Below, in pieces: positions 1,153-64,000 of a DNA stretch of 64,000 bases (position 1 is the first letter of the stretch; each line of letters starts with the position of its first letter). The stretch covers positions 33,377,364 through 33,441,363 of the forward strand of contig CM073322.1 of the NCBI GenBank assembly GCA_037043015.1, written 5' to 3'. The notes beneath the pieces are model-generated. The model saw only the letters and a program-made list of their open reading frames with translations, was not told the DNA's origin and made no database searches. The stretch is from Bryum argenteum. Lineage: Eukaryota; Streptophyta; Bryopsida; Bryales; Bryaceae. Made by a program: the position numbers and the translations under genes.

Positions 1153-4100
1153 TTACAGAAGGTCTTGGAGAGGGCGCATTCCGGCTTTATGTACTAACTC
1201 GCGGTGTTTGTATGCCGGTAGAGCCTTAGTCAGCATATCCGCGATGTTTTTCGTGGATTCAATTTTGGTGATGGCGACCTGACTTGAGTCTACAAGATCT
1301 TGCATATATCCGAATAATATTGGGTTGATGTGTTTCACTCGATCAGCTTTGATGAAGCCAGTGGAGACTTGGGCTACAGCCGCGGCATTGTCTTCAAAGA
1401 TCACAGTTGGGGTTGCGGAATCTTGTAACCTGCATTGATCATAGATTGTTCTTACCATTGTTCTTAGCCATACAGCTTCCCGTGCAGCTTCGTGGAGGGC
1501 GAGAAGTTCTGCGTGGTTGGTGGAGGTGGCCGTCACGGTTTGCTTGACTGACTTCCACGAAATTGGCGCCCCGTTCTTCAAGAAGATGTAGCCGGTTTGA
1601 GATTTGCCATTGGTCTCATCCGTCCGGAACCCGGAGTCGGCGTATCCTACTATCTTTGCATCTGCAGCTTTGGTGAAGTACAAACCCAAATCTTCTGTGC
1701 CACGAAGGTACCTTAGCAAATGTTTGATGGCGTACCAATGTCGTTGAGTAGGCTTCTTCTTTGTGGCGTGCCAAAACGCTGGTTGCAAATGAGATGTCGG
1801 GGTGAGTGTGGGTGGCGAGGTACAAGAGCGCGCCGACCGCTGCGAGGTACTTGGGTTTATCCACCTCTTCCTCCTCCTCCTCGCACAGGCGGTATGGATC
1901 CTCGCCAGTCTTGCTGCGCCCGATCATTGGTGCTGAGGTCAGATTTGCATCGGCCATGCCCAAGTTCTGAAGAAGCTTGCGGGTGTAGGATTCTTGGTGG
2001 AGCAGGATGCTACCATCTGAGAAGTGTTGTATCTGCAGGCCTAAACAATATGTGGTCTTGCCTAACAATTTGATCTCAAACTGGCTTTTTAGCAAGTTCT
2101 CAACATGATGGCATTCAGGTGTTGTCCCTATAATGTTGATATCATCAACGTAAACAACAAGAATTGCATAACCAAGGGGTTTGCATAGCACAAAAATGCA
2201 TGGAAGTGCTGGGTCACAGGAGAAACCTTTCTCAATGAGGAATCGGCGAAGGTGGTGATACCACGATCTGCCGGCTTGCTTCAGGCCGTAGAGGGCCTTG
2301 CGGAGATGGATTCCGACAAAGTGACCGGGAGCTGCAACTGGGACCGCGGGAAGAAAATCCGGAGGTGGCTTGATGAAGATAGTCTCCTCGAGCTCGCCAT
2401 AGAGATATGCTGTAACAACATCCAGGAGTTGCGTAGCAAGGGAGAGCTGAACTGCAAGAGCAAGTAGGTACCTGAAGGATGTGCAATCCATCACTGGGGA
2501 GTAGGTTTGATGATAATCAATTCCGAGGTGCTGATTGAATCCTTGTGCCACGCAGCGGACCTTGTATCGAACGATCTCGCCGTGCTCATTCCTCTTGCGG
2601 GTGAAAACCAGCTTGTATCCAATGGGACATGTTGATAAGTTGGTGTGCAGTTTGCCGAAGACGCCACGCTTGCGGAGAGAGTCATACTCCGCTGTTAGTG
2701 CATGTTGCCAGTCGGGCCAATCTGGTCTGGCCTTAGCTTGGTCAAGGGTAGTGGGTTCAGGATCAAGGTTGAGAAGCTTGGTGGCGAAGGTTGAAACGTC
2801 GGAGATGAGACATTCGGGTTCCATGTACTGAGATTCGGAAGTCGCCGGTTCCTTGGATGATCGGAGAGACTTGGCTAGTCGTGGGCTGGGTTTCGGTTGT
2901 GGGGGTAATCTCTTCTTGGAAAGGGGTGGGTTTCCGGATCCTGGAATTGGGTTGCGAAGAATACGAGGGCTAGTTTCGAAGCTATTAGGGATCTGTTGGG
3001 CTAAGGTTTGAAGGTGGAGAAGTTTCTTAACTTCAGTTTCGGCGATTGCCGTGCGTGGATCGGGGTTCATGGAGAGAGGCTCGACGGCACGGAAGGTGAG
3101 AGGAGCAAAACTGGAGGAAAACTGAAGTTTTGGAAAAACCGTCTCTATAAATCTGCAATTTTCAAAACGGGCCTTGTGTAGGGTGCCATTACTGGGCTCT
3201 ATGTACCTGATGATGCTGGGAGAATCGAAGCCTACATATAATCCTTCTAGGCGATGGGCACTAATGGTGCGGATTCGAGGTTCAGGTGCCGGTATCCAGA
3301 CCTGGCATCCAAAGACACGGGGATGACGGATATTTGGTACACGGCCAGATACTAGTTCGAGAGATGTTTGGGTATTGAGCAAAGTTGGTCTGAATCGGAG
3401 AAGGGTAGCAGCATGAAGAACGGCATGACTCCACATAGAGGCAGAGAGGTTAGCATGGATCAGGAGGGGGCGGGTTATCAACTGGATTTTCTTAATGTAT
3501 GCTTCAGCTAATCCGTTCTGGGAATGCTCGTAAGGAGCAGAATACGTGAGATCAATCCCTGAGGCGGTACAATAGTCTTCGAATGCATGGGATCTAAACT
3601 CCTGGGCATTATCCATTCTAAGTGTCTTGATGGGCTTATCCGGGAAGTGGTTGCGAAATCTAATGAGCATCGCGAGGAGTCTAGGGAATGCCATGTTCCG
3701 GGTGCTAAGGAGAGATAGTTCTGCATGGCTTCCAGAGGCATCAACTAGAACAAGAAAGTAGGCAAACTGACCTGAGACGGGGTTAATGGGTCCGCAGATG
3801 TCACCTTGTAATCGTTCCAGTGGTTGAGGCTGGGCCGTAGGTAGCGTCCACCGTGATGGGTACTTCGAGTACTTGCCTTGTATACATGCGGTGCAGTCAT
3901 CGACTTTGGCTGCATCACTTGGGCTGAGAGTGTGGCCGGTGAGGACCGGTATCATGCGGCGCAGAAGGGTCGTGCCCGGGTGCCCCACTCGACGATGCCA
4001 TATCTAGGCCTTGGGTAGTGCCGTTGTATGATAGGAGCGCAGCTCTGTAGTCGGAAAGATTCGTATCTCATACAGTCCGGAAGGTCCAGCAGGAATCTTC

Positions 4101-5584
4101 GTGATGGTTTGAGTGCCCACTTGTAGTGCCATGTGTTCATCATCATTTTCCAAACTTGTGGAAATGTGGATCCCATTGGAGCGCACATCCCGTGGCCGAT
4201 CGGGGCTACGGGGGCGTCCGCGCATACATCGCCTTACTACACACGAGGGGGAATCCCCCGGGCAATACTATCGTTGCCCGGCCCTCCCGGAACTTGAAGT
4301 TCCGGCTTCCGGCAATGGTGAGTATTTCACACTCTTGCCAGGGTCCGCACAAACAAGATGAATCAAAGAATTCGGGTTTCCTAAGTATTGTATGAGTGGA
4401 CCCGCTATCTAAGAGTGCCTTGTCTAATGGCATTGAAAGTCCAGGGGAAAGGACCATGAAATTTTCTAGATCTACTTCATTGAATGAGGGTGCATCGAGG
4501 GAGTGCACTTCCCTCTTCCCCTCTTTCAGTTTTTGAAGTTCCTGGAAAATTTCGACCCAATAGCGTGGGGTGCGGCACTCGCGCGCGTAGTGCCCTATAC
4601 GACCACAGTTGTGACAAGCCCCTCTAGATGACTCGGAACGGGAAGATTGACTAGACGACGATGATGGTCGTCGCGACGCGATCATAAGGCTCACAACGGT
4701 CCTGGTAATACCGTTGATAATCGCGCGCGATCGTCACGGCGGTCGGTCAGTTGTCGGTTGTCACGGAGTCGAATCTTGGTTGTCGCGATGGTAGTTGTCG
4801 CGATTGCTTGAGTAGCGGTTGTCCCGGCCTCGGCCACGTCCTCTGCCGCCGCGTGGGGGTCGTCGTGCGGCCTCGGTATTGTTGGCTTCTACGGCTTTTG
4901 TTGTTGGCGTGGTGGAGAAAACCGGAGCAGCTGCTGGCGGAGTTGGAGTAGCGGAGGTTGTGGTGATGGGTTCGGTCGTATGGATCTCCCGCGCCGGCCG
5001 AGATTCTGCATTCTTCACAAGCAAGAGCTGCTGCTTCTCTGCCATCAACAAGTTGGACATGAGCTCAGAGTGAGTAGTAAATCGCATGTTGCGATCTCTG
5101 CTTGCAAGAATAGTCATTGCGGTGGAAAAGTAGATAAGGTTTTGTCGATGAGGTCAGCGTCGGTGATGCGTTCGCCACACAGTCGGAGTTGAGCAGATAA
5201 ACGGTGGAGGTCGGAGTTGAAATCATGGATGGAAGGGAAGTCCATAACACGAAGGTTCACCCATTCGCTCCGGGCTTGAGGAAGCAGCAAGTCTTGGTGA
5301 TGTTCAAAGCGTGCTTGGATTTGAGACCACAGGCTCGCCGCGTCCGAAATCTGCAGGTACTGTTGGCGTAGTGAGGTCTCCATGTGACGGCGTAAGATCA
5401 TCAACGCTTGTTGGCACTTGGAGTTTGGCATCCCCTCCGCCGTAGCTCGGTACAAGGCACCTTCAAGTTCTTCCGCTACCGGGTAGGTGTGAACGTCGCT
5501 TGTCCATTCGAGAAAATTGTTGCCGTCTACTGCGAGAGCGTCAAAAAGCAGAGCTTGGGTACGAGACTCACGTGCGGTAGTCAT
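1153..5584 (-). pseudogene. Copia-1 gag-pol polyprotein, disrupted
   Basis: Gag starts near 5584 (MTTARESR...), with a UBN2-like Gag region to about 5114. A 1-nt frameshift there moves the frame, and further shifts lie in the Arg/Asn-rich linker near 4700. The CCHC knuckle (CHNCGRIGHYAREC) and the protease motif LLDSGSTHTIL lie in 4206-4694. The pre-integrase frame runs to about 4004, where an in-frame TAG separates LPKA from IWHRRVGHPG, a site where the related Copia-2 has Gln. The integrase has GDICGP, RMDNAQEF and NGLAEA (D, D, E). The RT has YVDD in VVYVDDINIIG. Near 1785 the frame shifts again into RNase H (YADSG, NHAELLAL, FEDNAA), ending at 1153. All domains are present, so the lesions look few and recent. 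Confidence 0.9.
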
Positions 5585-6045
5585 ATTGGTGCAAATGCTG
5601 AGCACCTGCCACAAAGATGGCCAAAGAAAGAAAAATGTCGAAAATAACGAAAGTGGGCTGCGGGGAGCGAGCGGGACAACAACGGTGCGCAAGGGGCGTG
5701 GGGAAAACCAGCGATCTGCTGCGAGGTAGAGGAGCGGAACTTGCTCCGGGCGATGGCTCATGGACACCGGCTAGACAATTTGGTCCCAAAGAACCACACG
5801 AAAGAATTAACTAGAACAAACAGAGAGGAATAAAATATCTTCAGGCAACAGAGTATAGGCTAAATGAGGTTGTGTCTATTGTTCGGCAGGGCTGCGGCTG
5901 TTGTAACAAAACAGCAGCAGTGCATGTAGCAAAAGAAAAATAAAACAAATAAAACGAGTAAGTAACTATCCTTCTCTCAGGTGTCACTTCTAAAAGGAAA
6001 GATAAAATAGCCACAACCACCAAGGAAAGCAAAACTAAGGAATAG

Positions 6046-16499: not shown

Positions 16500-17780
16500 T
16501 CAGGCCACCATCTTTTAAAGGAACATATACTTTTAACTATTAAGCCACCGCTTTTTGACGTTGTTTAAATGTAATGAGTCAGATGAGCCTCTACATACCA
16601 AATTACATGTTTCAACTAGTGTGTGTACATTCTGAACCACACGAACCCTTGATAAGTGACGCACCACCTTTTGAAGGTGTATACACATTTTATATCGTGT
16701 GGGCCTTTTAACATCAAGCTATCGCTTTGTGATGTTGTATGATATTTTAAGTTACGTATACCCCTAGATATGAAGCCACCGCCTTTTGATGGTGTATACA
16801 GATTGTGAGCTACATGGGCCTCTAAATATCAAGCTACCTTCTTTTAACAATGTATAAATCTCTTGTATTATAAATTTTATTTAAAATGCAAAAAGTGGTA
16901 TATAAATATTCTGAGCCAAGTGGGTAGATAATTATAAAGCCATCGCCTTTTGGTAATTTATGACCATTTTGAGCCACATGAGCATGGTAAATACCATACT
17001 ATTGGCGTTTGACGAGATAAAATTCATTAAGTGTTAAAAGGTTGTGTATAAACATTTTGAGTCATGTGGGCATTGTAAATACCATAACACCGCCTTTGAC
17101 AGTGCAAAAGTTACGACGTCAAAGAGGCTAAGTATAAATATTATAAAGCCACCGGTACCACCTTTTGGTAATGTTTGATCATTTTGAGCCATGTGGGCAT
17201 TGTTGGTAATGTTTGATCATTTTGAGCCACGTGGGCATTGTAAACACCATACCATCGCCTTTTGAGGGATTAAAGTTTTTGAAGTATAAAAAGGCGGTGT
17301 ATAAACATTTTAGACCACGTGGGTCAACAAATGTAAAGTCATCGCCTTTTGACAATGTATGATACTTTCAAGCAACGTGGGCTCTGTAAACACCATGCCA
17401 CTGCCTCTTAATGGTGTAAAAATCTTGAATCATAAACTCTATCATTAGCATTAGCAAGGTGGGCTCTGTAAACACCGTGCCACCGCCTCTTAACGATGTA
17501 AAAATCTTGAATCATAAACTATATCATTAGCATTAGCAATATGGGCTCTGTAAACACCATGCCACCGCCTCTTTATGGTGTAAAAATCTAGAATCATAAA
17601 ATCTATTATTGGCATTAGCCGTATCAAATCCATGCCACGGCCTCTTAACGGTGTAAAAATCTAGAATCATAAAATCTATCATTAGCATTAGCAACGTGCC
17701 CTCAGTAAACACCATGCTACTGCGTCTTAATGGTGTAAAAATCCCAAATCATAAAATCTATCATTAGCATTAGCCGTATT
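16500..17780. repeat. Degenerate tandem array with hairpin and G-box-like cores
   Basis: About 17 copies of a core like ccaccgccttttgacggtgta at spacings of about 60-110 bp. The core is self-complementary (CACCG...CGGTG). Many units also carry gagccacgtgggc, containing the palindrome CCACGTGG, for example at 17,225 and 17,313. The last five units (17,385-17,770) form a more regular 70-85-bp series with aaatctatcattagcattagc. No coding sequence. Confidence 0.7.
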
Positions 17781-19825: not shown

Positions 19826-22800
19826 ATGCCGTACTCGAATGAAGCAACTGCAAGTGCTGGTTGTATCTATCGCAGTTTGTTACGCGACTTGCATTGTACG
19901 TTGCAAGCCGCCGCGGTGTTTTTCGCGGGAGGATGTCTGTTGACGGTTTTACGGATGAATTCCTGTCGACCACAGTTTTAACTTTCTGGACATCTGTAGA
20001 TACTGCGAACGTGAAATTGGGAGCTTTAGTGATCCTGGTCTGGTGAGATTCCAGGATACGTAGGCTGGCATCTCGTTGAGCCGGAGAGGATACTGTTCAG
20101 CCACAGATCATATCCAGTTCCTATTCGTGACGGCTTATATGCTAATTAGCCAGCTGACATAGTGAGAGAGAGGACAGTGACATCGGTCCATCCTCTAGTT
20201 TATCTCCGCCGTCTCGATGGGGTAGAGACGAAGGGCCTGCTCTTCTCGTGCAGTTTGTCTCAGGGGCATTTCACACCGCTTAGTTCTTAATCTATATTTC
20301 AATTTAAAAATCGGCGAGGAACGGAGTCTAAGAAACTCGACCCTAAAAATTCATAAGGAAAGAGTGAGTGTAGGTTGAGCCAATTATAGTGGACCACGGA
20401 AGTTAAATGTTTTCTTGGATGTGGTAGTAGTGCTGTCCTATTCTGTTCGTTAACGTTGTGCACTTTCATTAATTTTCAGTCTGACGACAACTCGCAATGT
20501 TACAAACTTTCTTAAAAGTCTAGTTTGTTCAATCTATCCAGTATACGACTTGTGGATCCATGAGCGGCTCTTGCAAGGACACATTTCCTTTAAAATCTCA
20601 TAACATCCGCACTGTGATTCTTAACCCGCTCTAATCATCAGAAGTGAGCGAACTGCTGCAAAACGTGAAAGTCGACACAACGAAGCAAGCGGACAATGTC
20701 ACTCACGAGGTTAGATGATCTATTGAACTCAAGATCTTGTACTGCCGATAGGTCCTTGAATAACGGAGAGACTTTCTCCTCTGAGTAGGAGAATTTCTTG
20801 TTTGAATATAAGAATGGGTGGCTGTGTTACGTCAATGTAAAACCTAGCAATGTGAGGCAAAACTCGATCAGCTTGCAGAAGGTTATATCCTATTCCCGCA
20901 AGAAATGTTTACAATGTCAACAAAAGGACATGAATGTTGGGTATCATTAACCGCTAGTTGCTGCAGACTACAATCTTACTTTGAGATTTTTCACTAGAGT
21001 CATGTATATGCAGGTGCCTCCAAATAACGACGAAGAAGGCTCCGATGCAAGTGGAGATGCCTCTGCATCTATAGGAACTGGCGATGCAGCGAGCACAAAC
21101 GGAATACATGAGGGAGCACTAGAGGGAGGGATGTACTACGTCGGTGGCGTGAACGGATACACTGCTCAGGGCTATGTGTACGATTATCCTCACGGAGGTT
21201 AGTGTTGGCTTTATTCGACCTTCTCTTCTCCCGAATTGGCTCGTACACTGAGTCGGCTAGTGCAACATAATGGCATGGACAATTGGCTTATCATCAAAGT
21301 CTTGTAGCGATGACTTCCAATTTCTTCGAGAGCTTCTGTTTGATCGCGTATCGCACTCGCGCTTTGTTCGCAGGATACGAACCTCCTGTTGGAGTTGAGT
21401 GGGACGACTACTCCAGATATGTTGTCGATGGAGTGGAACTTCCATCTCCAGTAAGTTGTTGCAAGCAAGTGCATTTCAGTTGGTTTAGAGGATGCTTGGT
21501 TTCTGCATTCTTGGACATTCAATGCTGAAGGTGGCGTGTACTATCACTGTAAAACCGCATCCTGAGTGATAATCGACATCGCAGAACTGCGGAGCCTGTA
21601 TTCTCTGCTGCTTCGTCTGGCACCTTGTATTGAGTGCTCACTGATGGAGTTTCTTGATGTGTGCAGGGTGCGTACGGTGACAATGGCGGCTCCGTGTTCA
21701 TGCATGCCACCAGCTTCGGTTACTCTTCACAGCCATCTTACAGTCCGTTCACTCCTGGGACGCCTGTGCCGACTATGGGTGCCGACGGGCAACTGTACGG
21801 GCCTCAGGCCTTCCAGTATCCCAGCCACCTCTACCAACAACCGATTTCCCCCGTTGCGCAGTACATGGGATCGCGTCCAGCACCGATCAACGGTGGAGAC
21901 GGAGCAGTTCCTGGAAATGGCGAGCCCAGCCCTCCCGGAGTAGATGGCAAAAACGGGGTTCCGAGGCCTGGTTACCCAGCTATGGCACTCATTCCCCCAC
22001 ATGGACCATATTCCAGAGGCGTGTTGCCGCTGACAATTCACGGTACAGGGTCTCAGGACGTACGATATGAGGGCCTCCGGGCCGGCGCGCCTTCGTGGTC
22101 GGATGCTAAAAAAATAACAGATGGTCAGCAGAGACCCGGGATCCCAGCAGGGATACACCCGATGGCTTCGCAACAGTACCCGGCATCGGGAATTCCTGCA
22201 CAGCCATTGAGAGGATTGACTCCGTTGCAGGTAGGTTTCATTCACCCTCAAGTGGATGCATAATTACATGAGATTCAACTGGACTGTTGGAAATGATTAG
22301 GATGGCTGTTGATTCGGCTGTGATGGATCGGCGATTTCAAATGTCACGGAGGTGACCAGACAAGTCCGGGTCTATGCTCTGTATGCTGAACTGCACGAGT
22401 CAGTCGGATGCCTGTCTTGCTGCAATGAGGTACTGATGCCTGTAGATTGTTGGTTTTTAGATTCACTTACAAGCTTCCCAGCAGTCGAGGAATCCATCGG
22501 CATTGACGTCACCCAATCTTGGTCCTGGGGCGCTTGCCCGGGGTTACCCCCCGCTTTCCGGAGTGGTGAGTGGGCCTGTGAGAGGTCGCGGCATGGGGAA
22601 CGTAGCTTTTGACTCGAGGTCCAATGGCCGTGGAGCATGGGTTGGTCTGGACAAGAGCAAGCAGAGGGGTCGTGGTGGCGGACTTGTCAGTAGCAGCAAT
22701 GGCAGTCTTGATCCCATGAACGAGCAGAACAGAGGACCCCGCACGATAAGGAGCAGGAGCCAGCGGGCTATTCCAGGTGTTATGAGACACACTCGTGGAC

Positions 22801-24684
22801 AAGGTGCAAGCTCGTCGGGAAACGGCGATGTGGCAAGTCCGTTCGCGAACAAGGAGCAGTACAATAAGGCAGAGTTCGTGACGAGCTACGAGCACGCCAA
22901 GTTTTTCGTGATCAAGTCTTACAGCGAGGATGATGTGCACAAGAGCATCAAGTACAATGTGTGGGCCAGTACTCCAGTAGGAAATAAACGGCTGGATGCC
23001 GCATACCAGGAGGCTTCGACGAAGTGTAGCGGGGATGGGAAGAGCTGCCCAGTGTTCCTTTTCTTCTCGGTATGTGGTGGAGTGACCTGGGTGATCCAGG
23101 TTCAGCTAGGTTTGGGGTGCTGCTTGTGACGAATGGGCTGTTTGTGGTCATGTTGCTAATGGTGAATGTATGAGATGTAAAAGTTCTGCGTCTGATTTTG
23201 TGCGAGAGGGGAAGTTGAGCAGAAGTCGTCGGGGTGGCACGTGAGGCGGATAGCAGATGAGGAGAAATGAGGAGAAATGATGGTTTAGAGGAATGGAAAT
23301 GTGATTGTGGTGTGGCGGTGGGATGTTCTTCCAGGTGAACGCGAGTGGACAGTTTTGCGGCGTGGCGGAGATGACAGGTCCCGTGGACTTTACGAAGAGC
23401 GTGGACTACTGGCAGCAGGATAAGTGGAATGGTCGATTCCCTGTGACATGGCACATAATAAAGGACATTCCGAACTGCCAATTCCGGCACATAATATTGG
23501 AGAATAACGAGAACAAGCCCGTGACGAACAGCAGGGACACCCAGGAGGTAGTGACGCTTCAGCCCGTGTGTACTTGTGTAGACGAGCGGGGATAGCTAGG
23601 GAGCCGGTCTCCGTGTCGAGGACTTCTGAGTACGTCAGTGCTGCTCGTCACGATATTCTACTCAGTGGAATGTGGTTGGAGACTTCCATGAGCTTTAGCG
23701 AGTGTGGATGTTGGTGTTGCAGGAGGATACGTGGCAGTCCTTAGCATGCATCGGAATGGAACAAGGATGTGGCATAGGATGAGATGTTAAGGTGACTGCG
23801 ATGTCTGATTGGAGAGGACATTAAGCGACTGGAGTTGACGACATGGTTGGCTTGGTGCATGCAGGTGAAGTTCGAGCAGGGTATTGGGATGCTTCATATA
23901 TTCAAGAGCTTCGCGTCGAAAACTTCGATATTGGACGATTTTCAGTTCTATGAGAACCGGCAACGGGCCCTGACGGAGAAACGAGCGAGGCAGCAAAATC
24001 AGCAGCAACGAGAGCAGCATCGTCAGGTATGGCGAGCGATATGTTTTGTTGGTGCGTGATAGGCAAAAGTAAATGTGTGTCGCGTATATGATAGAGGCAT
24101 GTAGTAGTTCTGAAGGAGTGCAGCTTTCATGAGGTGATGCCAATCGCTCGCTGAAGGAATCAAGGTTTTCGTTTTTGCAATATGTTGGTCCCTCATCTCT
24201 TGATTATTAGGAATGTCGGATTGGGTCATGCTGTCGTGTGCGAGTTTATGCGACTCTCCGTATGAATCTGACCGCTTCTGAGGTGGATTGTGTATCACAG
24301 GGTTGTGGGCGGACTGGGGAGAGCGAGTTGGAATCTGGTTCCATGGGGAAAGAGTCGACTCAGTCGAATCATGATGAGGTTGTAGATAGGGTAGGAGCTG
24401 AAAATCCTGCAGAAAGCGAAGTACCGGAGGTATTTGATGGGTCACACAGTTCGAGACTGCATCGCAGTGGAGACGATGAACGTGGCGACGGGAGCCCATC
24501 TGTGAGATCCATGTCGGATGAGCTACCTTCAGGTATAGCAGGATTGAACATCAACGACGAGAAGAAGGAGAATTCTGTCGAGCTGAAAGAGCAGAGTGAG
24601 GCAGGAGCTGCTGTACCGGAGGAACGAAACGCCGCTTCAAGTGGAGAGAAGGAGAGCTTGACGGCGGTTGAGGGACAGTCCTAG
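19826..24684 (+). CDS. ECT: YTH-domain m6A-RNA reader, plant ECT/YTHDF type
   Basis: Nine coding exons: 19826-19859, 20642-20709, 21014-21197, 21374-21450, 21667-22230, 22482-23069, 23335-23547, 23865-24026, 24301-24684. All junctions are GT-AG, phases agree, and the total is 2,274 nt (757 residues plus TAG). The N-terminal ~430 residues are a Tyr/Pro/Gly/Gln-rich, probably disordered region typical of plant ECT proteins, with RGRG clusters near 342-375. The YTH domain spans about 440-610 ([38 protein letters not shown]). The methyl-adenine cage tryptophans are W470, W531 and W536. A Gln/Arg-rich helix follows (611-630), then an acidic tail. Known role of the family: cytoplasmic binding of N6-methyladenosine in mRNA. 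The start was chosen because the 34-nt first exon ([11 protein letters not shown]) joins exon 2 in phase; an upstream start cannot be excluded. Exon 6 has a cagcag acceptor allowing one extra or one fewer residue. Confidence 0.93.
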
Positions 24685-39226: not shown

Positions 39227-39429
39227 TATCACTAGAAGAAATCCAGGTATATAAATACGTTAAAACATGTCCGAGCCGTTAAAACCATGTTCTTGTGTTT
39301 TTTCTCATTCTCTTTTATCTTACATGTCTTAAAACTTTTAACAAGCCCTGTTAGAACGGAGCACTTTTAACGTCTCTTGTCGTTTTGATATTGTTGTGTT
39401 TCTTGTCATTCTTCTCTGTTAAAGCAAGT

Positions 39430-39885
39430 TAACTAAATCTAACGGTGGATGAAGGAGATCTAGCACCTCAAAAACCATCCATTTTTTTCACTTTTTTCAT
39501 TGTAAGAACATCAATATAAATCCAATAGCAAAGTTATTTGGATCAAAAAACTTGCAACTAGAAAGTTGTAAGGATGCATCTAAAGATCATACTTATGTAA
39601 AGAAAACTCATGAAAAACTCTTTATGATATCACATAATTAGCTTGCAATGGTAAAACATGCCCCATTTTTGGATAACAAAAAATAGAAGCTGCCTTCACA
39701 AAAATGCTTTCCATTAATTCATACTTCATAGTATGGGCCTGCAATTTTTACCATACAAACAAGACTTCATTTGGGACCCAACCCAAGTAATTTCGTTAAA
39801 AACAAAGTCGAAATGAAGAAGTTATGGCTCTTCAAAAATTCTTCCTTTCATCCAAAATGTCATTTATTTCTATGCACACTAGTGC
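39430..39885 (+). repeat. Family A repeat nested in the CACTA element
   Basis: Matches 15,600-16,035 closely in order (aacggtggatgaaggagatctagc, gttatggctcttcaaa, catccaaaatgtcattt). The TTAA-CCCC terminus is absent, so it is truncated. Short words matching family B (accaactttgaatggtatcatctcacaaatgg-like) lie at 40,530-40,580. Confidence 0.7.
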
Positions 39886-39892
39886 ATGGAAA

Positions 39893-40190
39893 GATTAGTT
39901 CACCTATTCGGCTGCGGTTGGAGCGGCGTAGGCAGGAGCGGCAGCGGGACTTCGCGTCTGGTGGAACGTGGTGGACGTGGAGCAGGCAGGGCTTCGGCCT
40001 CACTTCCATAGCAAGATCATGGCGTCTGGTTGGTGGAGCGCGAGCGAGCAGGCTCCACCCCGGGTCGTCAGGGGCGACGGCATGCGGAAGATTAGGTTCC
40101 GTGGTAGAGAGAATCTGTGCAGGTGGAGGCCAGTATCACCGTATTTCCCCTGCGAGTTCTTTTCAGAACTAGCTGTAACATAGTAGGTTG
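39893..40190 (+). other. GC-rich fragment inside the CACTA element, possible captured gene piece
   Basis: About 300 bp of markedly higher GC than everything within 10 kb. One frame stays open to a TAG at 40,183 and includes KIMASGWWSASEQAPPRVV. I do not recognise a family. CACTA elements commonly capture host exons, so a Pack-type fragment is a reasonable inference. Confidence 0.35.
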
Positions 40191-40728
40191 GTTTCTTTAT
40201 TAGATGGTCTGAAAATCAACCGGAAGATATAGTCTGGGATTTTAAGTAATATTAATAGAATAGTATTAGGGAAGTTTATGAATTTTGACCCAATCATTGT
40301 GGTCGTATTTTTTTCCTAGTAACCACCTAATGTGAGAATCCACATGCAAGGGGAAAATTAATGAGCTATGAGAATTTACACTCTCTTTTCCATGTGTCCC
40401 ACTTTATAGACCTCTATCCATAAAACAATTTAGGTAAATGTTCATAGAGTTGAATGAGACTCTAAAAATTTGTGTGTGCATTTTCAACTTAGGTAACTAC
40501 TCAGTATTACAAAAAAAAAAAATGTTTATTACCAACTTTGAATGGTATCATCTCACAAATGGTAAAGATCCAAGGCATGGATAATCTATGATCCTCCAAC
40601 GCATGGATAATACAATCTTAAAGTAGTACTTTTCTGCAACTCAAGTACTTCTTCAGTGGTACTTCTCTGCAACTCTACTACTTCTTTAATAATACTTCTC
40701 GACAATTCTAATACTTTTCTATTATTAC

Positions 40729-41645
40729 TTAAAATCCCAATTTTTTTAATGCTTCCAAGCCAGCTTTTAAAACAATGGGCTTCACCAAGAGGGCAACTCC
40801 ATATTGCTTGTACTTTGTATTTTTACTTGTACCGTGGTTTATTTTTGAAGCATCAAAACATATTAAAGTCCCAGGGGTTGGACGGAAAAATAATCCGTAC
40901 TCCTTCAGACGGAATTGAGCTCGTTTAATTTGAGAATCATCTACAATCTCTGCAAAATATATTGAATTCAATTAGAACATTAGACACTAATAAATGCAAC
41001 AATTTCTTAAAAACTTTTAGTATAACATGTATGCAATTAAATACTTTTATACTAGTTTTAAAAGAAATCTTGTAATGGAAAATTACCTTTATGAACCCAA
41101 AATATGAATCCAGAACCCCCATCTCTATTATCTATATGGTCAGGTGACCAATAGTTCTCTGTCACACTCATTGTTGTAAATGGAGTATTTCCAATTCGAC
41201 CCCATGCTGTTCCTAACTCTTTAGGAACTAAATCTTCCAAACTTTTTATCCAAGATGACATTTTTAAGTTCAGCACGTCGTATACTCTGTTAGCTGTCGG
41301 GGCTGCGAGTGTGTTTAAATCTGTAACTGAAATTGGCATACTTTTTTCCCTCCCTTTTCTATTACTTTGTGTATATATACCAAATCCTGTTGGTGTAACT
41401 CTCCATCCAAATACAACCATATCCCCACCACTCTTTTCCTTACCCCTCTTTATTATTCCTCCTGCATTGTATAGTTTATTACATTCTGTAGTCAATATGT
41501 GAATTTGTTCATCCGAGAAAAAAGAGAAATCAATTATTGCTACTACTGTTTCATTTTCTAACAAAATCGCGCTAGAAGTAATTTCTTCTAAGGGATCCAA
41601 ACTACCTATCTTTTTAGAGACATGGATCACATGGTGAATTCTCAT
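40729..41645 (-). CDS. 2-oxoglutarate/Fe(II) dioxygenase, TET/JBP-like
   Basis: Two exons: 41,645-41,087 and 40,949-40,729. A 137-nt intron (donor AAAG|GTAATT, acceptor TTTTGCAG|AG) keeps the phase; 259 residues, no internal stop. The C-terminal half shows a double-stranded beta-helix iron site: H170 and D172 in SPDHIDNRDGG and H225 in FDASKINHGTSKN. The strand-turn FRPTPGTLICFD just before the last His is characteristic of these enzymes. Spacing and the HGTS context resemble the TET/JBP family, which oxidises 5-methyl-pyrimidines in DNA. The Arg expected about ten residues after the last His to hold 2-oxoglutarate is not seen (K232, K234 nearby), so co-substrate use is uncertain. The gene lies wholly inside the CACTA element. 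An in-frame stop lies just upstream of the chosen Met unless another exon precedes it. Another branch of the oxygenase superfamily is possible. Confidence 0.6.
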
Positions 41646-42289
41646 TGGAATTGAAACTCCTTGTCATCTAAATTTCTCTATTTCACTACATCCTGTAATA
41701 CTCTCACTATTAACAACCTTTCTAGCATGTTTTTGACATATAATGAAACTCAAGTCGTGCTTGAGTTTTCATTATTCTCACACATTCCTCACACTTATAG
41801 GACTCCATACTAAATGATAGATAGATAGATAAGAACTCCAATCTTCAAATCGAAAATAACAATTGTATATAACCAAAGAGCTTACAACAAAAGATAGTCC
41901 CTACCATCTCACCCGCAAGCTTATATATCCAACTAAAAGTCTTTCTCTAGTCTTTTACTTTCCTATTTCTAAAAATAGATCTTATCAATAGATCAACTAG
42001 ATCAACTAGATCTTGTCAATAGATCAACTAGAGAAATAACTCTTTATGTATTTAAACTATTTATTTTAAAAGTAGAATATGTAGATTTATGTATTTACTT
42101 TCTATTTTTAAAGTGGAATATGTATATTTATGTATTTACTATATATTATATATATATTATAGTTGTATTGTATTATAGTTGTATATATAATATAATATAT
42201 ATATTACATATCTTATTTACTATATGTATGTATAGTATGTATATTTGTCTATTTACTATTTGATATAGAGTTTTAGCACACAAAGTAGA

Positions 42290-42740
42290 ATTGAACGATT
42301 TTACCTCTAAATATGTTTTTAGCAAAAACCGCTATTTATGTAAAATGATTTCACCTCTAAATATGTTTTTAGCAAAAATTGCTATTTATGTAGAACGATT
42401 TTACCTCTAAATATGTTTTTAGCGAAAACCACTATTTATGTAAAACGACTTTACCTCTAAATATGTTTTTAGCAAAAACCGCTATTTATGTAGAACAATT
42501 TTACCTCTAAATATGTTTTTAGCGAAAACCGCTATTTATGTAGAACAATTTTACCTCTAAATATGTTTTTAGCGAAAACCGCTATTTATGTAGAACAATT
42601 TTACCTCTAAATATGTTTTTAGCGAAAACCGCTATTTATGTAGAACAATTTTACCTCTAAATATGTTTTTAGCGAAAACTGTTATTTATGTAGAACAATT
42701 TTACCTCTAAATATGTTTTTAGCAAAAACCGCTATTTATG
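42290..42740. repeat. 50-bp minisatellite, about 9 copies
   Basis: Unit ttttacctctaaatatgttt-ttagcgaaaaccgctatttatgtagaacaa, period 50, with few differences between copies (gcgaaa/gcaaaa, acaatt/acgatt). It lies in the 5' flank of the minus-strand oxygenase gene, within the CACTA element. Confidence 0.95.
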
Positions 42741-42811
42741 TAGAAGAAACCGCTATTTATGTAGAAGAAACCGCTATTTATGTAGAAGAAACCGCTATTT
42801 ATGTAGAAGGA
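42741..42811. repeat. 21-bp tandem repeat derived from the 50-bp unit
   Basis: About 3.5 copies of tagaagaaaccgctatttatg directly follow the 50-bp array. They are a shortened form lacking the ttttacctctaaatatg part. Confidence 0.9.
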
Positions 42812-43410
42812 TCATCAAAGCGTTGACAGACGGCGCTCCAGCACACCGATCATTGCTTGCTTCATCCGTCGCGCAACGCAGTTAGCTTGGTTGACGACGC
42901 CGTGGAATCAGAGGCAAAAACATTGGACTACCTTAAAAAACAAACAAAAAATTGCCATGTATAATGCAGTCGCCTTATAATTTAACATGCATGCCCTTTT
43001 AAAAAACAATAAAGTCTAGCAGCCACGTCAGATCAGATTCTTATCCTAAAACCGAGCGTTAAATCAAGATTAACAGCGCGTTAGTTTCACTTTAACGCAG
43101 ATATTATCTACAATACTCCCTTAAATCCACCCTGTTATAAGTCATTTTTCGCGAGTGACCTAGATGACACAAATCTGTTACAAGAATTTAACATCAAAAT
43201 GCGTTATTTAACGTTAAATAAGACTTTAAACGCTGTTATAATAGGAGGGGCCTTCCTCTAGTGTATCAAATCAACAGTTTTTTATTACTGTAAATTAATT
43301 AGAGACTAGATTTAAGCTTGTAATACATTTAGATTTAGGCTAGTGACTGATTAGGGATTTTAGTTACAAAGTTTGATTAATTTAAAGTAAGAATTGATAT
43401 TTATAGGTTA

Positions 43411-60553: not shown

Positions 60554-63500
60554 TTACATGAGGTCTCGAAGTGAGCGGAGACCCGCTGCGCGAACCAACT
60601 CTCGATGCTTAGAAGGCTGGAGTGCCTTGGTTAGCATATCTGCAATGTTATGCGCAGTGTCGATTTTCTTCACCTCGATTTGATTCGTCTCCACGAGGTC
60701 CTGCATAAACCCGAAGAGTTGAGGTGGGATGTCTTAACTCGATCGCCTTGATGAAACCGGCGGAACTTGGGCAATCGCAGCAGCGTTGTCCTCGAAGATA
60801 ATGGTCGCCTTGGGTCATGAGCTCATACCGCATTGCTCAAAATCGTGTCCACCATAGTCCGAGCCAAACCGCCTCTCGAGCGGCTTCGTGAAGCGCAATC
60901 AACTCCGCATGGTTAGTCGAAATCGCCGTGACGGTGCCCGCTTTCTGATTTCCAACATATCGGAGCTCCGTTCTTGAGGAAGATATACCCTGTCTGGGAC
61001 TTGCCACTAATCTCATCCGTGATGTACCCGGAATCTGCATATCCCGTGATGTTAGGACTCGCCTCCTTCGTGTAGTGTAGACCCAAATCTTCCGTTCCCT
61101 TGAGGTATCGAAGAAGGTGCTTCACCCCGCGCCAATGTCGATCAGTTGGCTTGCGCCCGTGACGAGCTAACACACTAACAGGAAATGAGATGTCGGGGCG
61201 AGTGTGAGTTGCGAGGTAAAGCAGTACTCCGACCACAGCGAGGTACTTCTGCTGATCCTTCTCATTCTCCTCCTCCTCGCAAGGTCGGTACGGGTCGTCT
61301 CCCGTGCTGCTCCTCCCAATCATTGGTGCCGAAAGGGACTTGGCGTTGGACATGTTAAATGCCTTGAGCAGCTTCTTGGTGTAAGTGTCTTGGTGGAGAA
61401 GAATACTCCCGTCGGGAAGATGGCATACCTGAAGTCCAAGACAAAACGTGGTGCGGCCAAGGAGTTTCATCTCGAACTGAGTAGTGAGAAGCTCCTCAAC
61501 CTCGGTGCACAATGCGTCAGTATCCACCAAATTGAGGTCATCTACATAAACTGCGAGGATAACAAAGGCAGAATCTCGACGAAGCACGAAGATGCTAGGT
61601 AAGGCATCGCGGCATGTGAAGCCTTGATGAGTAAGGAACCTCCTGAGGTGATGATACTAGGCGCGCCCCGCTTGCTTCAGGCCATATAAAGCTTTGCAGA
61701 GCTTAAGGCCGCAAAATTTGCCGGGTGAAGGTCTTGGAGTATCCTTCAAAAATTCTGGGGGCGGCTTGATATAAATCTTCTCGTCCAACTCCCCGTAGAG
61801 ATATGCCGTGACTACGTCCACGAGGCGAGTGGACAACGTGAGTTGCACAGCAAGTGCGAGCAGGTACCGGAAGGAAGTGGAATCGATCACCGGTGAGTAA
61901 GTCTGGTTGAAGTCGATCCCGGGACGCTGGTTGAAACCTTGGGCCACGCAGCGCACCTTGTAGCGAACAATCTCACCCTTCTCGTTGCGCTTGCGAGTGA
62001 ATATGAGCTTGTAGCCGATGGGCTTTGAAGGAAGATCAAGTACCACGGGACCAAACACTTGGCGCTTGCGCAATGAAGCATACTCGGCTTGCAATGCGGC
62101 TTGCCACTGTGGCCATTCGGGGCTGGCTTTGGCTTGTTCTAAGGTAACCGGATCTGGATCTAAGGTGGTGATGGAGGTGACAAAGGCTTCTACCTCAGGT
62201 AGAAAGGGTGGTTCAGAAGAAACAAGGGGTGCGGGTTCTATATGAAGAACTTCAGGATTCTGTGCTACCGGGGGTGTAGCAACTAGCTCTTTGGCTCTGG
62301 AATTCTTCGAGGCTTTGGGTCCCTTAGGTACCGAATGTGCCTTAGGAGCCTTCGGAGGTTTTGGGGTCTTAGGGTCTTTCTGCTTGGGTGCTATGGGAGG
62401 ATTGCCTGAACCAGGAATTGGGTTTCGAAGAATTCGGGAAGTAGAGGCAAAACCATCAGGAATGCGGGTTGCTAACTCGTGAAGATGCAAGAGTTTCCGG
62501 ACCTCAGTTTCAGCTATGGCAGTTCGTGGATCAGGGTTCTTGGTGAAAGATTGGGTGGCTCTGAACCTTAAGGCTGGTGAAGGTGTGGGTCTATAGAGTG
62601 CTGGGAAGACTGTCTCTATGAAGCGGCAGTTTGCAAAACGAGCGCGGTGTAGAGCACCAGTTTGGGGTACTAGATAGCGGATAATGCTTTGGGAGTCAAA
62701 GCCCACGTAAATGCCTTCAAGGCGATGGGCAGCAATAGTGCGAAGTTGAGGTTCCGGGGCTGGAACCCAAACTTGACAACCGAACACTCAAAGATAACTA
62801 ATGTTGGGAGTTCTACCGGAAACCATCTCTAAGGGAGTCTGGGCATTGAACAGTGTGGGGCGAAGTCTGAGAAGGGTTGCGGCGTGAAGAACTGCATGCC
62901 CCCACATAGAGGTAGGCATATTGGCATGAATAAGGAGGGGGCGGGTGATAAGCTGAATCTTCTTGATAAAAGCTTCAGCTAGACCGTTTTGGGAATGCTC
63001 GTATGGGACAGCATACGTGAGCTCTATTCCTGTGGCTGTGCAGTAGTCCTCAAAAGTTTGGGATCTAAACTCCTTTGCATTGTCCATTCGTAAACTTTGG
63101 ATTTTTCTATCGGGAAAGTGGGTTCTAAAACGAATAAGCATGGCTAAGATTTTGGGAAAGGCCATGTTCCTAGTGGTGAGTAAGGAAACTTCAGCGTGTG
63201 CCCCCGAGGCATCAACAAGTACCAAGAAGTAAGAAAACGGACCTGAATGCGGCTCAATAGGCCCGCAAATGTCGCCATGCAGGCGCTGGAGTGGCTGAGG
63301 GAGTTCTGTAGGCAACTGTGACCGCGAAGCAGCCTTCTGAAACTTGCCTTGAATACAAGCAAGGCACTCCGCCATTTTGTCCGTATCAGCAGGACTCAAG
63401 TTGTGTCCGGTGAGTATCGGGACCATCCGACGAAACAAAGTCGTGCCAGGATGTCCAAGTCGCTTATGCCACAGCTGGGCCTTCGGAAGCACCGCCAAAT

Positions 63501-64000
63501 TACATTCCCTTGGCGCGTCCGCCATGATGGGTAATGCGTAAAGGCGATCGGTCCCGTATCACTCTCTAGTCGAACTCGCTTATCTTTGCGCAGTTCAATG
63601 GCATCATCATAATCATCGCCTTCCCGTCCACAAAATGGAAGCGTGAATGCCATTTGCACGTAGATCCCGGTAGGCGATCGAGGCTCGGGATGCATCGAGA
63701 GCATACATAGCTCTCTCAATACGAGGAGAATCCCCGGCGAACCACTCTTGCCCGGCCCTCCCGAAACCGCAAGTTTCGGCTTCCGTGTCGTGACAAGGTC
63801 ACAATTCAACCAGGTATCTCGCATGACTGAAGACTCAAAGAAAATGGGGTCACGTAGGATAGTATGTGTCGAGGCGGAGTCAAGTAAGGCAGTATCTGTA
63901 TAAGACTCCTCCCGAGAACGGACGACCATATGGTTCTCGATATCGAAGCTAGTGAAGAAAGGGGCATCAAGGGTGTGAGTTTCCCGTTTTGTCTCCTTCA
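60554..64000 (-). pseudogene. Copia-2 pol polyprotein, disrupted and incomplete
   Basis: From right to left: protease (ALLDSASTHTILRD, about 63,880, where the active-site D-S-G reads D-S-A), pre-integrase (LPKAQLWHKRLGHPG), integrase (GDICGP, RMDNAKEF, NGLAEA), then RT with VYVDDLNLV, then RNase H (YADSG, NHAELIAL), ending at TAA 60,554. In-frame lesions: TGA near 62,790 where Copia-1 has an Arg codon, TAG near 61,658 where Copia-1 has Trp, and frameshifts near 60,930 and 60,760. The polyprotein's N-terminal gag part lies beyond the window. Confidence 0.9.

Follow-up and report, generated by a model that had tools for sequence, protein, structure and literature searches.

The window analysed here, a 64,000-nucleotide stretch of contig C2 (C2:33377364-33441363; contigs are written C with a number throughout), contains a short transposon of the CACTA/EnSpm type that encloses a gene for an oxygenase with homology to the TET/JBP enzymes. 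We consider it probable, with some reserve, that this element belongs to an eight-member plant CACTA/EnSpm family that carries its own TET/JBP oxygenase with an N-terminal C2H2 zinc finger, together with a Tnp2 transposase in its long copies, and that the enzyme would modify 5-methylcytosine (5mC) and loosen silencing of the element. What we observe directly are the ends, the target-site duplications, the copy number, past mobility, the presence of both Tnp2 and oxygenase in two long copies, and the TET/JBP homology of the cargo. The features of the element in the window, with positions counted from its first letter, are the following:

39227..39229, no strand: left target-site duplication TAT (8/8 family members have matching 3-bp flanks)
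39230..43263, no strand: CACTA/EnSpm element of 4,034 bp, a deletion derivative of a 16-18 kb family, both ends being common to 7 other elements in the genome
39230..39240, plus strand: left terminal inverted repeat CACTAGAAGAA, where homology with the C10 copy starts exactly
40729..40949, minus strand: oxygenase exon 2, bearing the second His of the iron site and the stop codon
40950..41086, minus strand: intron of 137 nt, GT-AG (donor GT kept in 7/8 copies, acceptor AG in 8/8)
41087..41645, minus strand: oxygenase exon 1, open core from an internal ATG, with the HxD of the iron site
41646..41808, minus strand: broken 5' part of the gene, with the family start codon and C2H2 zinc finger, disrupted here by a frameshift and a stop codon (the frame is open in C3 and in the database relatives P0002-P0005)
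42293..42790, no strand: tandem repeat with a unit of ~50 bp, also in family members (self-matches in 50-bp steps)
42925..42926, no strand: deletion junction, at which the transposase-bearing interior is gone
42926..43263, no strand: right terminal region retained by the deletion derivative
43253..43263, minus strand: right terminal inverted repeat, CACTAGAGGAA on that strand
43264..43266, no strand: right target-site duplication TAT

A first-pass annotation of this DNA had described CACTA ends on both sides, a TAT duplication and sub-terminal CGTTAAA words, and all three descriptions held. The right-end partner of CACTAGAAGAA is CTTCCTCTAGTG, terminating at 43263, TAT is present at both flanks, and CGTTAAA/TTTAACG occurs three times in the first 500 bases and four times in the last 500, and is absent from 2,000 bases in the middle. 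Taken alone, the 11-base end word is weak evidence, since it has 721 exact matches in the genome searched (258.8 Mb in 25 contigs) versus 465 for a reversed control. Chance ends are nevertheless ruled out by the pairing of both ends, with matching flanks, in eight of eight elements across this genome.

These elements were recovered from both sides. The last 339 bases used as a query gave eight matches (all eight candidates scored), and the first 240 bases gave eight full-length matches among the best 40 of 365 candidates, the other 32 of those rows being 35-38-base matches to a different repeat. Left and right ends pair into eight elements of 4.0-17.6 kb, each bounded by matching 3-bp flanks:

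C2:33416593-33420626, 4.0 kb, flank TAT: window copy
C7:18349433-18353515, 4.1 kb, flank ATA: C7 copy
C2:31567501-31574817, 7.3 kb, flank AGG: C2:31.6 Mb copy
C1:21387981-21398365, 10.4 kb, flank TTC: C1:21.4 Mb copy
C5:316647-327108, 10.5 kb, flank ACC: C5 copy
C10:16555545-16571650, 16.1 kb, flank GAA: C10 copy
C1:35530390-35547165, 16.8 kb, flank CAT: C1:35.5 Mb copy
C3:15836344-15853952, 17.6 kb, flank CAG: C3 copy

Oxygenase sequence is enclosed in every one of the eight, which answers the question, raised in the first-pass annotation, of whether the gene always accompanies these ends. Two members also provide empty sites: the C1:35.5 Mb and C2:31.6 Mb copies inserted ~25 bases apart in copies of one repeat, and each shows the target of the other uninterrupted, with the three bases single. 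Both empty sites agree with the CACTA boundaries. Six of the seven other copies leave the window sequence at 42926 and continue into interior sequence, and the 10.4-kb copy matches window positions 42925-43263 at its right end with 98.5% identity. Having lost its transposase by deletion, the window element is a non-autonomous derivative. The C7 copy shares this junction (50/50 bases) and sits at a different target site, which shows that the derivative moved on at least one occasion after the deletion.

The interior of the C10 copy encodes a Tnp2 transposase (PF02992, expectation value [E] 3.7e-66) on the same strand as the oxygenase, as well as DUF4218 (1.6e-25) and DUF4216 (5.7e-6, at 27.2 bits below the cut-off of 30.6). 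The C3 interior is ~98% identical to it except for a 0.9-kb insertion, and has Tnp2 in a 598-codon frame (E 4.4e-66). When the genome was searched with the Tnp2 core, C3 and C10 matched at 100% and the next locus at 64%, among the best 150 of 566 candidates. Tnp2 and oxygenase therefore lie together within complete matched ends in C3 and C10, two of the eight copies, and membership of the family in true CACTA/EnSpm is supported by the ends, the 3-bp duplications, the empty sites and Tnp2.

Several other observations concern the element. Opposite-strand frames near the right end of the long copies gave no Pfam match above cut-off, nor did a short frame inside the long element (L048 5053-5358, minus; L039 5281-5553, plus) that contains the basic stretch SERKRRKKLNGG, resembling basic helix-loop-helix factors. 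Other sequences starting with CACTAGAGGAAAACA (L001, L006, L007) share the first 11 bases of the window element, and pairs such as C1:3000600/3003111 are inverted matches ~2.5 kb apart, perhaps a non-autonomous family.

Concerning the gene itself, it had been described as intact, with two exons and an H-x-D...H iron site. The stop-free two-exon core of 259 codons and its GT-AG intron were confirmed, with the candidate iron site at H170, D172 and H225. Intactness had to be rejected for the window copy: the family gene starts 55 codons further upstream with a C2H2 zinc finger, as seen in the C3 copy, the C1:21.4 Mb copy and database relatives, and the frameshift and stop in this part of the window copy leave only the core from the internal ATG open. 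The C3 gene is uninterrupted, and its spliced protein of 301 residues begins with the zinc finger. At E <1e-3, 11 database relatives were found with the window protein and 26 with a profile, all with uninformative names; four from other datasets (P0002-P0005) have open frames of 256-257 codons that include the zinc finger. A protein search with a further relative, P0018, returned P0018 itself as the sole match.

Homology to TET/JBP, the family proposed at the outset, rests on two kinds of search. Among profiles of the 2-oxoglutarate (2OG)-Fe(II) type, Tet_JBP (PF12851) is matched by the window protein at E 6.3e-8, although its 32.5 bits lie 2.4 bits under the curated cut-off of 34.9. The C3 protein matches it at 3.3e-7 (30.1 bits) and zf-C2H2_jaz at 2e-5, and P0018 passes the Tet_JBP cut-off with 37.2 bits. 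In the PDB, searched with the window protein at E up to 1, the sole match was Chlamydomonas CMD1 (7CY4; E 2.1e-6); a profile of nine relatives matched CMD1 at 5.8e-7 and, through its zinc finger, the double-stranded RNA (dsRNA)-binding ZFa at 4.8e-4. These matches support the cargo as a TET/JBP-family oxygenase at the level of sequence.

In the alignment with CMD1, the iron ligands H345, D347 and H397 face H170, D172 and H225, bearing out the iron site claimed for the window protein; the 5mC-reading D350 faces D175, and the ascorbate residues S335, T337, W358 and T399 face S160, T162, W183 and T227. The HxD motif served as the starting point for numbering CMD1, and the residue letters match those in the available part of PMC7854593. 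According to the same source, W358 of CMD1 sits where TET2 and NgTET1 have their 2OG-binding Arg, and activity is abolished when R244, H249, T337, W358 or T399 is mutated to Ala (PMC7854593, available in part). Arg244 may have its counterpart in R82, the sole invariant column of alignment A1; for His249 we could not find a clear counterpart. The HxD motif is present in 21 of the 26 database relatives, and 17 of these 21 have D at +5 and 17 have W at +13. In the genome itself, Trp is kept in seven of eight sequences (window, L040-L043, L068, L069), L044 having Lys. We take the second His of NgTET1 to lie at 279, which is the basis for a spacing of ten residues. Ten residues past the second His, a position assigned by spacing alone, Gln is found in 6/7 sequences (window, L041, L042, P0013, P0018, L069) and Val in L068, where NgTET1 has its 2OG-binding Arg289 (PMC7854593, available in part). 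The combination of Trp and Gln favours a CMD1-like use of ascorbate and falls short of proof; the enzyme may depend on ascorbate, like CMD1, and not on 2OG. An AlphaFold model of P0018 alone had a predicted local distance difference test score (pLDDT) of 41.5, giving no confident model of the fold.

Searches with the window protein and a C9 relative found 83 further clustered TET-like loci (E <=1e-3), though the weakest among them may be spurious. We found that eight of these loci have a Tnp2 match no more than 15 kb away, versus 1.46 expected, a count reached by 0 of 5,000 circular shifts; within 10 kb there are five (0.98 expected; 12 of 5,000 shifts), and within 20 kb nine (1.96 expected; 0 of 5,000). 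These figures come from three distances tried and the best 150 of 566 Tnp2 candidates, with the sizes of C6, C11 and C21 guessed and repeat-rich regions common to both kinds of locus incompletely allowed for. At two places, C7:8537001-8547000 and C9:4618501-4628500, a Tnp2 gene (E 2e-65 and 1.4e-58, respectively) adjoins a split gene in which HxD..D and the Trp are both present. Tet_JBP is matched by the C9 protein at 2.1e-6, and the C7:8.54 Mb protein, with no Pfam match at 0.1, is assigned by its resemblance to the window protein and the C9 protein (E 1.1e-4 and 2.3e-10). Given these two places and the excess in proximity, TET-like cargo appears to be a recurrent neighbour of CACTA transposases in this genome, transposon ends being known for the eight-member family.

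Many loci of this TET-like expansion lie in open frames, for example C9:4619434, C8:5886089 and C6:14134440. In L040 (C1:8264501-8267500) and L041 (C5:21501-24500) the TET-like frames run through the place of the window intron, and these are possibly host-type genes; L041 has one stop where the relative P0013 reads through.

The first-pass annotation had named oxygenase copies lacking these ends, with empty sites showing different boundaries, as evidence that would tell against it. Its other condition of this kind, the lack of a match to any 2OG-Fe(II) profile, did not arise. Of the condition on copies and empty sites, the first part does occur: a second group of copies at ~87% DNA identity (L015-L018, L020, L021 and L031 in full, L036 on C8 in part) lies in a different repeat, where such ends were not seen. 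The second part does not, all eight close copies lying inside the ends and the two empty sites fitting them. Second-group copies share 3.9 kb at ~97%, and their repeat includes diverged inverted stretches and tandem repeats (L050-L053). We did not recognise the CACTA end pair around them in 20 kb of the C4 copy and 16.9 kb of a second-group copy on C10, the left boundary lying beyond the stretch; the right boundary is near 16967 of the C4 stretch. In the six copies read (L015-L018, L020, L021), ~40 codons are missing from the oxygenase, and its reading frame shifts behind HID. To the left of the shared part, a 298-codon frame on C4 (L050 2-895, minus) matches DUF7869 (E 1.8e-38), and a second frame there has no Pfam match.

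The eight copies also bear a possible trace of methylation. Each was compared with their majority, the tandem repeat being masked and two rows being partial (C5 without its first 0.35 kb, C1:35.5 Mb without its first 1.5 kb). With H standing for A, C or T, transitions at C/G sites amount to 30/727 opportunities at CHG, 10/705 at CG and 18/5,689 at CHH (CG and CHG together versus CHH, Fisher 9e-16). CHG transversions are also raised (14/727 versus 18/5,689 at CHH), and part of the CHG excess may therefore be local misalignment or clustered change. The pattern suggests plant-type CHG/CG methylation of the copies, and an element that is a target of silencing and that the enzyme, if active, failed to protect permanently.

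In the reading that we prefer, the oxygenase of a long copy would be made together with the transposase and would be brought to nucleic acid by its zinc finger; it would then flip out and modify 5mC on the DNA of the element, and this modification would loosen silencing. Several observations weigh against it. The whole gene is open in one of the eight copies (C3) and the core in two (C3 and the window), the core being interrupted in the remaining six. There is no Tnp2 core match in six of the eight elements, among the best 150 of 566 candidates. Three comparisons of the second group with the C3 gene gave a ratio of nonsynonymous to synonymous substitution rates (dN/dS) of 0.70-0.77, though the second group is degraded. 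For C3 compared with the C1:21.4 Mb copy the ratio is ~0.48, on 13 changes; an out-of-frame comparison with L012 and those made inside the second group (7-12 changes) were excluded. The Tet_JBP score of the window protein stays under its cut-off, and the C-to-T excess at CHG and CG would be expected if the copies were methylated anyway. The broken cores and the higher dN/dS values speak for a passive passenger, that is, a plant gene that a CACTA element picked up and has copied along without gain for itself, and CACTA elements are known to capture genes. We nevertheless judge a passenger unlikely, given that the oxygenase is kept in all eight family members, that TET-like genes adjoin two other Tnp2 genes and TET-like loci lie nearer to Tnp2 than shifted positions do, and that in P0002-P0005 the frame, zinc finger included, is still open.

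A further set of alternatives concerns what the enzyme would do. The zf-C2H2_jaz match and the PDB match to ZFa (E 4.8e-4) would fit an oxygenase that acts on RNA or protein rather than DNA, with a zinc finger of the dsRNA-binding (jaz) type, but the cytosine-reading D350 of CMD1 is matched by D175, which is kept in 17 of 21 relatives, and small zinc fingers of this type also bind DNA; we find this option quite improbable. If the substrate is 5mC, the enzyme might work as CMD1 does and transfer a glyceryl group from ascorbate onto it, giving 5-glyceryl-methylcytosine (5gmC), so that the mark would be masked and not erased. CMD1 is the sole oxygenase match in the PDB, the Trp that blocks 2OG is present in 7/8 sequences of the genome and 17/21 HxD-bearing relatives, and Gln (6/7) or Val (1/7) stands in place of the 2OG-binding Arg of NgTET1. 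However, the similarity to CMD1 is weak (30-33 bits), its essential His249 has no clear counterpart, and the Arg/Gln position is derived from spacing and not from structure, with canonical 2OG TETs outside the comparison, and we hold CMD1-like chemistry as a tentative and rather doubtful option. An ordinary 2OG-dependent TET yielding 5-hydroxymethyl-, 5-formyl- or 5-carboxylcytosine (5hmC/5fC/5caC) would suit the Pfam family, Tet_JBP, and has a precedent in the transposon-linked TETs of fungi (CcTET, as told in the available part of PMC12730594), but the Trp and Gln at the 2OG site make it unlikely.

The host is a land plant, and probably a moss. LEAFY, which occurs in land plants and related algae, is present at C5:15179479-15180018, where it reads MRDYVHCYALHC; we take the Arabidopsis piece at this place to be MRHYVH, and the Asp there is presumably the moss type. 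The window itself also holds Copia-type retrotransposons on the minus strand (1153-5770 and 60913-63558, with RVT_2 in 1616-4003, 60913-61656 and 61657-62787) and a YTH-domain gene on the plus strand (22461-23129; YTH E 5.6e-15).

Iyer et al. are also said to have dealt, in 2014, with DNA transposons of fungi that carry TET genes (TET+). That fungal TET/JBP genes travel with transposons, as the first-pass annotation stated, is confirmed by the description of TET+ EnSpm, Plavaka, Kyakuja and other DNA transposons, of the types PU, AG and PE, for which an anti-silencing role was proposed and stated to be experimentally unvalidated (Kojima, 2025, PMC12730594, available in part). In plants, TET/JBP homologues were stated as not identified (PMC6917789, 2019), and TET homologues as unidentified again in the available part of a later paper (PMC11233409, 2024), while a review, likewise available in part, assigns CMD1-like proteins to closely related green algae (PMC11065753). 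The Kojima text has no occurrence of 'moss' or 'Physcomitr-' and three of 'plant', none on plant TETs (PMC12730594). We found no report of a plant TET transposon in the literature by title and abstract opening, a search in which subscription papers are thinly covered. What appears to be new here is TET/JBP cargo in a plant CACTA family, TET+ EnSpm being already known in fungi, and this suggests that the fungal pattern of a transposon carrying a 5mC-modifying enzyme extends to the green lineage. Reports of oxidised 5mC in plants are in conflict, and its maker is not known; the ~100 TET-like loci, some of them adjacent to CACTA transposases, represent a candidate source that can be tested directly. 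In its broadest form, which we regard as unlikely, the proposal would be that a large TET/JBP lineage borne by transposons (~100 loci here) resides in mosses or early land plants, serving as an anti-silencing module in several Tnp2 CACTA families and using CMD1-like ascorbate chemistry. If this were true, the DNA of these plants would contain transposon-made 5gmC or a similar base. Mosses are transformable, and the contest between methylation and transposon is testable there.

Compared with plant CACTA/EnSpm elements of the En/Spm type, the family described here has the same kind of ends, 3-bp duplication, sub-terminal words, Tnp2 and non-autonomous deletion derivatives, and differs in including an oxygenase gene. 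It resembles Chlamydomonas CMD1 (PDB 7CY4-7CY8) in keeping equivalents of the iron site, the 5mC-reading Asp, Trp358, Thr337 and Thr399, whereas the zinc finger of the family lies outside the match and CMD1 is not described as transposon cargo in the available part of its report (PMC7854593). With the fungal TET+ transposons it shares a TET/JBP gene and a transposase inside complete ends (here in C3 and C10) and the involvement of several transposon lineages, and with fungal TET+ EnSpm, as far as the available part of PMC12730594 describes them, CAC..GTG ends and 3-bp duplications. Unlike these fungal elements, it has a land-plant host, a Tnp2 accompanied by DUF4218/DUF4216, an N-terminal C2H2 finger on the oxygenase, and CMD1 as the relative of its enzyme in the PDB.

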